64,000 bases of DNA from the NCBI RefSeq assembly GCF_011250565.1, contig NZ_JAANMS010000001.1, forward strand, positions 186,001 through 250,000, read 5' to 3'. The stretch is from Nocardioides sp. IC4_145 (lineage in GTDB: Bacteria > Actinomycetota > Actinomycetes > Propionibacteriales > Nocardioidaceae). The position numbers and the translations under genes are program-made. The number at the start of each line of letters is the position of its first letter. Positions within the stretch are counted from its first letter, which is position 1. Positions 18,992-59,573 of this stretch are shown piece by piece. The notes below the pieces were generated by a model, which worked only from the letters and a program-made list of their open reading frames with translations, ran no database searches and was not told where the DNA came from.

Positions 18992-19003
18992 GTCGCCGCG
19001 GCC

Positions 19004-19043
19004 GGCTGGTGGAGGAGCGCGCGCTGGCGCGCGTCTCGAGACC
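19004..19043. repeat. Dispersed ~40-bp element, family GGCTGGTCGAGG, copy 2
   Basis: Starts GGCTGGTGGAGGAGCG and ends CGTCTCGAGACC, with the internal inverted repeat GCGCGC-TG-GCGCGC. It lies between the convergent ends of the kinase-fold gene and the metallopeptidase gene, where it could end transcription in both directions. Copy 1 is at 2280 and copy 3 at 52230. Confidence 0.7.
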
Positions 19044-19049
19044 CGCCGG

Positions 19050-41547: not shown

Positions 41548-41570
41548 GCGTGTGTCCCTCCTGGGGTCGG

Positions 41571-41616
41571 GTCGTGTGCCTCACGACGCGCGGGGGCGCG
41601 TCCTCGGGCACACGAC
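41571..41616. repeat. 46-bp palindromic element, copy 1
   Basis: Ends GTCGTGTGCC and GGCACACGAC with an inner ACGCG/CGCG pair. It is inside the amine operon, in the 96-base gap between the aldehyde dehydrogenase and SDR genes. Other copies are at 57247, 57401 and 59465. Confidence 0.85.
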
Positions 41617-41643
41617 CCCGGGGTTGGTGTGCGGGTGCTGCGG

Positions 41644-51221: not shown

Positions 51222-51865
51222 ACGGCAAGACCGGCCTGTCGCTGCGCGGCGTGAGCCACGGGTACGGCGCCGGCAGCCGCCGCGTCGCGGTCCTCCACGA
51301 CATCACGCTGTCGGTCGAGCCCGGCGAGCTCGTGGCGCTGCTCGGCCCGTCGGGCTCGGGCAAGACGACCGTGTGCCACCTGGCGGCCGGGTTCGAGGAG
51401 CCCGAAGTCGGCACGGTCGAGGTCGACGGCCGGTCGCCCGCCGCGGCCGCGGACTGGTCGCTCGTCGCCGTCGTGCCCCAGCAGCACGGGCTCGTCGAGG
51501 GGCTCGGCGTCGAGGAGAACGTGCTCCTGCCGACGTACCGTTCCACCACGCCGGCCGTGCCCTTCGCCCGCCTCGCGGACGAGCTCGACCTCGGCGCGTT
51601 CGCGCACCGGCGGGTGGGGGAGACCTCGCTCGGTGAGCAGCAGCGGATCGCCGTGGCGCGCGGGCTGGTGCTCTCGCCGCGGGTGCTCGTGCTCGACGAG
51701 CCGACCGGTCACCAGGACGACGACCGGGCCGAGCTGGTCACCGCCGCGCTGGTCGGGGCGGCGCGGGCCGGCAGCGCCGTGCTCGTCTCGAGCCACGACG
51801 CGCGGGTCCGGGCCATCGCGGACCGGGTGCTCAGGCTCGAGGAGGGCCGGCTGCTCCACGACTGA
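51218..51865 (+). CDS. ABC ATPase 2 of FtsX-like exporter
   Basis: A 215-residue ATPase with Walker A GPSGSGKTT (about 46-54) and Walker B VLVLDEPTGHQD. The signature is TSLGEQQR instead of LSGGQQR, and Q-loop features (PQQHGLVEG) are intact. Two different ATPase genes beside one large permease suggest an asymmetric heterodimer, or one ATPase with a regulatory role. Its last 35 bases overlap the convergent membrane-protein gene. Confidence 0.87.
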   Translation: MNGKTGLSLRGVSHGYGAGSRRVAVLHDITLSVEPGELVALLGPSGSGKTTVCHLAAGFEEPEVGTVEVDGRSPAAAADWSLVAVVPQQHGLVEGLGVEENVLLPTYRSTTPAVPFARLADELDLGAFAHRRVGETSLGEQQRIAVARGLVLSPRVLVLDEPTGHQDDDRAELVTAALVGAARAGSAVLVSSHDARVRAIADRVLRLEEGRLLHD

Positions 51866-52463
51866 CGCTCCGCGCCACCAGGAACCCGGCCACCAGCGCG
51901 CCGAGCGTCCCGAGCGCCTCGTCGCCCAGGGTGTCCTCGTACGCCGTGTCGGCCTCGGTGCCGTGCCGGATGAACGTGAACCACTCACCGAGCTCCCACC
52001 CGATCGCCAGCGCGGCGCCGAGCCCGGTCACGAGCACGACCACCGCCCAGGCCGGGCGGACCGAGCGGCACAGCAACAGCCCGAGCCCGGCGCAGAGCAG
52101 GAACCAGTTCACGAGGTGGTTGAGGTCGTCCCACCACACGACCGCGTCGTAGAGGTCGAGGCTGTTGCCGGTCACGTCGACCAGGAACGGCAGCATCACC
52201 AGCGTGAACGCGCCGTGCGGCGCCCCATCGGCTGGTCGAGGAAGGCGCGCAGCGCCGGTCTCGGAGCCCGCCGACGACGCCTGCCGGGCCCACAGGAACC
52301 ACACGGCGGGCGCCAGCAGCATCAGGAGGGGATAGGCGACCAGCCGCGCTCCGAACGCCTTGCCCTCGAAGCGCTCGATGCCCGGCACCCACTGGGCGAC
52401 GGCGAGCTGGGCCACGGTCGCGAGGAGGACGAGGGCAGGGATCCACCACGGCACGCGACGCAT
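51831..52463 (-). CDS. Integral membrane protein with in-frame repeat element
   Basis: A 210-residue membrane protein with five to six helices. DLNHLVNWFLL and the later GWELGEWFTF are the only conserved-looking motifs; they are seen in DUF2238/YjdF-like membrane proteins. Residues of about 66-78 are encoded by a copy of the GGCTGGTCGAGG repeat (52230-52268) and form a polar loop between the second and third helices. The frame stays open through it. ATG 52463 is chosen because the protein starts properly there. The function is unknown. Confidence 0.7.
   Translation of the reverse strand: MRRVPWWIPALVLLATVAQLAVAQWVPGIERFEGKAFGARLVAYPLLMLLAPAVWFLWARQASSAGSETGAARLPRPADGAPHGAFTLVMLPFLVDVTGNSLDLYDAVVWWDDLNHLVNWFLLCAGLGLLLCRSVRPAWAVVVLVTGLGAALAIGWELGEWFTFIRHGTEADTAYEDTLGDEALGTLGALVAGFLVARSVSRGAAGPPRA
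52230..52268. repeat. Dispersed ~40-bp element, family GGCTGGTCGAGG, copy 3 (inside a gene)
   Basis: Begins GGCTGGTCGAGGAAGG like copy 1 at 2280, with a small central deletion and a CTCGGAGCC end. The length of 39 bases keeps the reading frame of the membrane protein gene (minus strand) and adds about 13 codons. Confidence 0.75.
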
Positions 52464-57122: not shown

Positions 57123-57246
57123 CGCCGCTCGCGTCGCACCACTCCCGGGGTGGTTGCGCTGCCGGCGGCGGCACGGCGTACCCGGCCCCGCGGCTGGCCT
57201 GGCGCTCACTCGCCCCGGCCGCCCCGGCCGCCCCGGCCCCACGGGC

Positions 57247-57292
57247 GTCGTGTGTCTCTGGACGCGTTCCGGCGCGTCCTCGGGCACACGAC
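57247..57292. repeat. 46-bp palindromic element, copy 2
   Basis: GTCGTGTG and CACACGAC ends with inner ACGCG/CGCGT, 46 bases in all, the same layout as the other copies. Its right end is also the first unit of the 26-bp tandem. Confidence 0.85.
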
Positions 57293-57359
57293 CGCCGCTC
57301 GGTCATCGGGCACACGACCGCCGCTCGGTCATCGGGAGCACGACCGCCGCTGGGTCATC
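57282..57359. repeat. Tandem repeat, three 26-bp units
   Basis: Units begin GGGCACACGACCGCCGC and end TCATC; the third has two changes (GGGAGC, CTGGG). The start of each unit equals the right arm of the 46-bp element, so the tandem probably grew from it. Confidence 0.85.
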
Positions 57360-57400
57360 GGGCTGCTGGGGTCACCGGCCGCTGTCGGGCCGCCACGGGG

Positions 57401-57446
57401 GTCGTGTGCCTCTCGACGCGGCCGGCCGCGGCCTCAGGCACACGAC
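57401..57446. repeat. 46-bp palindromic element, copy 3
   Basis: GTCGTGTGCC and GGCACACGAC ends with ACGCG and CGCGG inside; same length as the other copies. Confidence 0.85.
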
Positions 57447-57500
57447 CAATCCCGGCCGACCGCATATCCAGCCGACCGCGGACGACCGACCGCCTCAAGC

Positions 57501-59309: not shown

Positions 59310-59464
59310 CCCGCACCCCCGCCGGCTGAACCCGGCCCGCACCGCCACCGGCGCTCGACCACCCGCACGACACGGTGTCCCGGGTCCCTCGACCGGGGGT
59401 GCGAGGTACGCCTGGACGGGCCAGACCGCCCGGGCTCCCGCGCTCCCGAGCCACCGGGCGGGCG

Positions 59465-59510
59465 GTCGTGTGCCCCACGACGCGGTTCGGCGCGTCCGCA
59501 GGCACACGAC
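59465..59510. repeat. 46-bp palindromic element, copy 4
   Basis: GTCGTGTGCC and GGCACACGAC ends with ACGCG/CGCGT inside; outer GGCG and CGCC flanks extend the pairing. It lies in the 264-base gap between the Rpf-like and epimerase genes, where I see no other feature. Confidence 0.88.
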
Positions 59511-59573
59511 CGCCGGTCGGCGGACACCGCGAGAAGCCGTGTGAGGCCCCCGCGCGCGGGGCACCGAGCGCTC

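Follow-up and report, generated by a model that had tools for sequence, protein, structure and literature searches.

Palindromic repeats that lie in frame within many unrelated genes are known from Rickettsia, where each type of element (RPE) carries a conserved peptide and is retained in working genes, as set out in PMC10969869 and PMC2229807. REPs of the GTAG/CGTC superfamilies are described as short palindromes, single or in dimers, that are mostly intergenic and placed between convergent or unidirectional genes; in several species some of them, dimers included, are found inside ORFs, and some ORFs have been struck twice (sections on intragenic REPs in PMC3733652). Bacterial MITEs, such as QMITE2 of Coxiella and the Correia elements, are likewise described as supplying in-frame protein parts (passages in PMC5896051 and PMC2229807). 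The family described here resembles the RPEs in that a palindrome lies in frame in several unrelated genes (9 copies in 6 genes), but is set apart from them by description: RPEs are about 100–150 bp long and Rickettsial in the cited passages (PMC10969869, PMC2229807), whereas the present copies are 43–46 nt long and come from an actinobacterium. It is REP-like in the wide sense, being a short covarying hairpin with 72 copies, mainly outside genes and often near converging ends. Unlike GTAG/CGTC REPs, however, its consensus (CGGCTGGTCGAGG...AAACCCGCCG) has neither GTAG nor CGTC at either end, and no Y1/RAYT-type transposase was found in this draft genome; the main text of PMC3733652 mentions neither actinobacteria nor Nocardioides. 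QMITE2 and the Correia elements are longer and, in the passages cited above, have target duplications, whereas none is readable here. A search of open-licence papers found no description of the Nocardioides family or of in-frame palindromes in Nocardioides. The kind of element is already known; the present family, actinobacterial and without the GTAG/CGTC tag, is new.

The 64-kb window, by which we mean the whole stretch of DNA that was analysed, belongs to a Nocardioides genome of 4.27 Mb, a draft of 103 contigs (G000). It was predicted from the letters to contain a 39-base repeat in frame inside a membrane protein gene. The features concerned are as follows.

52229 to 52273, + strand (antisense to the host gene): palindromic repeat element, 45-nt variant (covariance model E 2.3e-11, 29-copy alignment, translation).
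52230 to 52268, + strand: 39-nt core (GGCT...AGCC), inside the 45-nt unit (sequence).
51831 to 52463, - strand: host gene, encoding a 210-residue multi-helix membrane protein (sub-threshold DUF2238 similarity, predicted helices, dN/dS).
2279 to 2324, + strand: second window copy (E 3.3e-13), outside genes by the codon model.
19003 to 19048, + strand: third window copy (E 1.2e-11), which the codon model places between convergent coding regions.

The host ORF ran uninterrupted across the element, and codon usage on both sides was coding-like in the same frame, so that the in-frame position given by the original prediction was borne out. Translation of codons 66–78 returned the predicted peptide, GSETGAARLPRPA. 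The size needed amendment: the 39-base core is present, but the full family unit is 45 nt, and it touches, in part or whole, residues 64–79 (numbered from the ATG at 52463; peptide SAGSETGAARLPRPAD). AlphaFold2 modelled six helices of at least 19 residues in the host protein and placed a low-confidence coil (pLDDT 69/57) between those at 37–65 and 83–101; the assignment of the element to the loop that joins the second helix to the third is therefore correct as well. The only Pfam match, to DUF2238, was below threshold. A dN/dS of 0.14 was obtained against G115, the closest relative, and the named relatives that carry the gene are mainly Nocardioides.

The repeat family was characterized from 29 aligned genomic copies, which are 43–46 nt long, follow the form CGGCTGGTyGAGGA...TCTCGArACCCGCCG and give the consensus CGGCTGGTCGAGGAAGGCGCGCTAGCGCCTGTCTCGAAACCCGCCG. 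The core sequence GGCTGGTCGAGG occurs exactly at 52230 and 2280 in the window, and 86 matches were obtained with up to two mismatches, compared with a mean of 23 in shuffles. Genome-wide, the pattern TGGTCGAGGN{8,26}TCTCGAGACC was found 12 times and its reversed control not at all. A covariance model gave at least 82 genomic matches, at least 72 of them at E<0.01 (scored among the best 150 of 13946 candidates), three of which are the window copies. Pairing within the hairpin is well maintained: 97.5% of pair cells are standard, and five pairs show changes on both sides. Such double-sided changes numbered 25, compared with 5.8 in shuffles, a value that none of 500 shuffles reached, and pairing fell to 36–53% when the partners were slid out of register. 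All 29 copies keep a G-U at one pair, and 13 have a G-U at a second. Folded as single-stranded DNA, the window copy was no more stable than shuffles (z -0.14). Across the genus Nocardioides, the model matched 131 of 209 genomes at E<=0.001, scoring being limited to about 30 matches per genome. One locus of G117 (L277) holds a dense array, with many copies of the element within about 3 kb.

The orthologues were expected to lack residues 66–78 or to differ in length at this point, and they do. The aligned segment from residue 36 to 98 is 63 residues long here, compared with 46–57 in 61 other sequences (63 were aligned, some of them one genome taken from two collections, and L098 and L100, which are truncated or frameshifted, were set aside). 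The repeat covariance model had no match inside the host gene in 59 orthologue loci, the four matches found there falling outside the gene, and a search for the same residues in distant orthologues, the finding that would have counted against the prediction, did not turn them up. The gene of N. deserti (L073), the closest relative, shares 93.7% identity across 591 aligned bases and is shorter by 42 nt; G115, which is probably the same organism, gave the same picture. Since the segment is shorter in orthologues, no model match is present at the site and the N. deserti gene is 42 nt shorter, the element at 52229–52273 is, judged by these alignments, a lineage-specific gain, and the comparison also serves as the polarity check that had been proposed. 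The inserted unit was less well defined: a gain was seen, but because the net difference is 42 nt for a repeat of 45 nt and neighbouring loop bases also differ, the clean unit was not recovered exactly. Given its absence from orthologues and the dN/dS of 0.14, the insertion is recent and the gene still under selection. In L045 (G010) and L080/L110 this loop holds other extra residues, about 5 above the common length and of unrelated sequence.

Two other histories of the loop were considered. The loop could have grown by drift or slippage, with a chance resemblance to the repeat in a GC-rich genome; indeed, no part of the protein varies more, and orthologues show changes there of up to about 8 residues, different in sequence (for example G010 and L110/L080). 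Chance does not account, however, for a match of the full-unit model at E 2.3e-11, for BLAST alignments with other genomic copies at 89% identity (62 nt) and 97% identity (35 nt), or for the retention of four independent arms and the loop of a covarying hairpin. On the strength of the match, the excess over shuffles and the absence of the reversed pattern, we rejected this explanation and give it practically no weight. It is also very improbable that the element is ancestral in the gene and was lost by all relatives. Copies can be old, since G115 and G150 share the insertions in an E2 acyltransferase and a sensor kinase of this genome, but the only hint of a remnant in the host gene is GSEP in N. 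abyssi, which is too short to count. With the element in none of the 59 orthologue loci, the closest relative included, ancestral presence would need many independent, exact, in-frame losses; the shorter segments and the lack of any model match led us to reject it as well.

A search for further in-frame copies in the genome, also suggested by the original prediction, was productive. Copies were called in frame when the ORF was open through the element and both sides were coding in that frame by a codon model trained on 25 genes hand-picked by codon-position GC, which was right for 80 of 84 left-out 300-nt windows and superseded an earlier model (91 of 138 windows right). By this measure 9 of 72 genome copies are in frame in 6 genes, that is, 8 more in 5 genes other than the host gene.

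Biotin-carboxylase subunit (BC): two abutting copies, residues 308–336, between the ATP-binding domain (end 303) and Biotin_carb_C (start 341).
APS-kinase/low-molecular-weight-phosphatase fusion, first linker: one copy, residues 227–242, before APS_kinase (262–415).
APS-kinase/phosphatase fusion, second linker: two copies, residues 443–477, between APS_kinase (262–415) and LMWPc (482–588).
Carboxyltransferase subunit (CT): one copy, residues 259–274, inside a single Carboxyl_trans match (34–521).
E2 acyltransferase: one copy, residues 226–241, between E3_binding (182–217) and the catalytic domain (247–477).
Sensor kinase: one copy, residues 319–334, between HATPase_c (195–309) and DUF4153 (420–776).

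BC and CT are subunits of acyl-CoA carboxylase. Six of these eight copies lie between two Pfam domains, one has an unassigned region on one side and a domain on the other, and one lies within a domain. Together with the orthologue comparison, the in-frame position supports the proposal that repeat DNA has been turned into protein sequence.

Filled and empty sites were compared among eight relatives. In CT, this genome and G144 each have a copy in the same loop, and the other seven relatives, G115 included, have none; because closer relatives lack it, the two copies probably represent separate events. In BC, the sense copy is found only in this genome, and G115 shares the antisense copy; at another place in its BC gene, G010 carries a different in-frame copy. 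The first linker of the APS-kinase fusion holds a copy here and another form in G144, with none in the other seven, and the second holds two copies in each of three genomes, both sense here and in G144, one antisense and one sense in G115. G147, G150 and G232 have the second linker with no recognisable copy, and the G127 fusion (L329, 930–2825) has at least three in-frame copies, in both linkers. G115 and G150 share the E2 copy and also that of the sensor kinase, for which G147 has a similar peptide with no model match. Some insertions are thus private and young, others are shared and decaying, and some linkers have been struck repeatedly.

The screen was extended to the genus. The 220 rows listed include five repeats of overlapping loci; 188 rows and a further 27 that were weaker or partial were screened, and the loci were drawn from the best matches listed, so that the genus is unevenly sampled. 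Among the 188 copies from other genomes, 13 were in frame in genes (copies less than 120 nt from a locus end are counted in the 188 without a frame test). The 27 weaker rows added two in-frame copies, both in L329, and two others were too near the locus end. The weakest in-frame assignments were L339 (score 0.15), L247 (0.16), L344 (0.21) and L269 (0.27). Among the hosts in the genus are an acyltransferase, which has the element in a linker in G197, G219 and G214, a GCV_T-domain protein in G185 (L293) and a class-III aminotransferase ORF in G004 (L279, 1113–2501), which has two in-frame copies, one directly before the conserved VFFTNSGTEANE stretch.

All 22 in-frame copies from this genome and the 188-row screen used a single frame per orientation: E-E in each of the 12 sense copies (peptide type VEEGALAPVSKP) and E-T in each of the 10 antisense copies (GFETGA or GFETGAxAPSS). 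The same frames were used by the further in-frame copies, two from the new rows and 12 in orthologue loci. Agreement was counted from the arm nearest the 5' side of the gene; anchored on the far arm, the antisense copies split 4/6 because the length of the hairpin loop varies. Among the 72 genome copies, the sense frame in use was free of stops in 71, compared with 55 for +1 and 38 for +2, and the antisense frame in use was free of stops in 69, compared with 71 and 55. Stop content explains the choice of frame partly for sense copies, and not for antisense copies. Multiplying the 1/k values naively gives about 1e-8; this is not taken as a probability because the count was post hoc and the sites, at partly homologous copies, are not independent.

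Three views of function were weighed. In-frame copies could be selected linkers, with VEEGALAPVSKP and GFETGAxAPSS favoured and spread partly by recombination between linkers. Consistent with this, six of the eight other copies sit between two Pfam domains, the APS-kinase/phosphatase linker is filled in this genome, G115, G144 and G127 with differing orientations, and one frame is used per orientation although 71 of 72 copies have no stop in antisense +1. The same placements are expected under neutral tolerance, however, and three relatives (G147, G150 and G232) do without a recognisable copy in the linker; we regard selection of linkers as unlikely. In a bolder form, being read would be what the palindrome is made for: because both arms carry the same GAG codon, each orientation would give one open frame with a flexible, linker-like peptide, the frame used in every in-frame copy examined. 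The family would then be a portable linker, usable in both orientations to extend the loops and domain boundaries of core enzymes, and re-used at the same linkers in several species; this too seems doubtful to us. It is a serious possibility, at somewhat short of even chances, that the function is intergenic, as an RNA hairpin near gene ends, and that the intragenic copies are rare, meaningless accidents. Just 9 of 72 copies are in frame, the 25 otherwise flanked by coding sequence are convergent or codirectional and never divergent, and the G-U pairs (29/29 and 13) fit pairing in the sense-strand RNA; an intergenic role leaves the common frame and the repeated hits on the same linkers unexplained. 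The peptide may be merely tolerated or may be used as a linker, and both fit the in-frame placement.

Outside the in-frame set, 63 copies were placed relative to genes: 15 were convergent, 10 codirectional and none divergent, and 38 had one side that was not coding-like. A search of G000 for Y1_Tnp (PF01797, RAYT) found nothing at E<=0.01, although a gap is possible in a draft of 103 contigs; the family was detected in 6 of 14 control genomes. The element's ends, CGGC...GCCG, pair with each other, and sites filled here and empty in G115 show no clean target duplication. No phage match to the element was found, and the single plasmid record, from Thioclava and covering 67% of the query, was taken as chance.

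For the observed family, its in-frame position, absence from orthologues, recurrence and common reading frame, we propose that a short non-autonomous palindrome was, very probably, copied into the helix 2/3 loop after the split from N. deserti, and that the loop tolerates it. A non-autonomous palindromic (REP-like or MITE-like) Nocardioides element would spread through the genome, mostly to gene ends, and we infer that it moves as DNA, helped by a trans-acting enzyme, and that its sites are explained by survival rather than targeting. The copy in the membrane protein gene would have entered the loop between helices 2 and 3 after divergence from N. deserti. It would have arrived as the 45-nt variant, 15 codons long and in antisense orientation; the frames of this variant have no stops, so the host gene stayed open. 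The protein would thereby have acquired extra flexible, polar residues at a place where the loop tolerates them. Selection would remove the element from most genes, and copies would persist in loops and linkers when their length and frame keep the gene open, becoming protein sequence. The same family has done likewise several times here and in relatives, mostly at domain boundaries where selection permits.

With this family, palindromic repeats that code for protein are extended to free-living actinobacteria, and the cases are dated. Relatives at 94–97% host-gene DNA identity show filled and empty places in the same genes, carboxylases and an aminotransferase of known fold included, and make testable the old question of whether such inserts are tolerated or used as linkers. 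Annotators should be aware that identical short peptides (VEEGALAPVSKP, GFETGA) in unrelated Nocardioides proteins represent repeat DNA and not a domain. The window also holds another palindromic family, GTCGTGTGCC...GGCACACGAC, with at least four copies (41570–41619, 57242–57296, 57396–57447 and 59461–59515); three tandem units with 26 bp spacing, at 57276–57363, overlap these palindromes.
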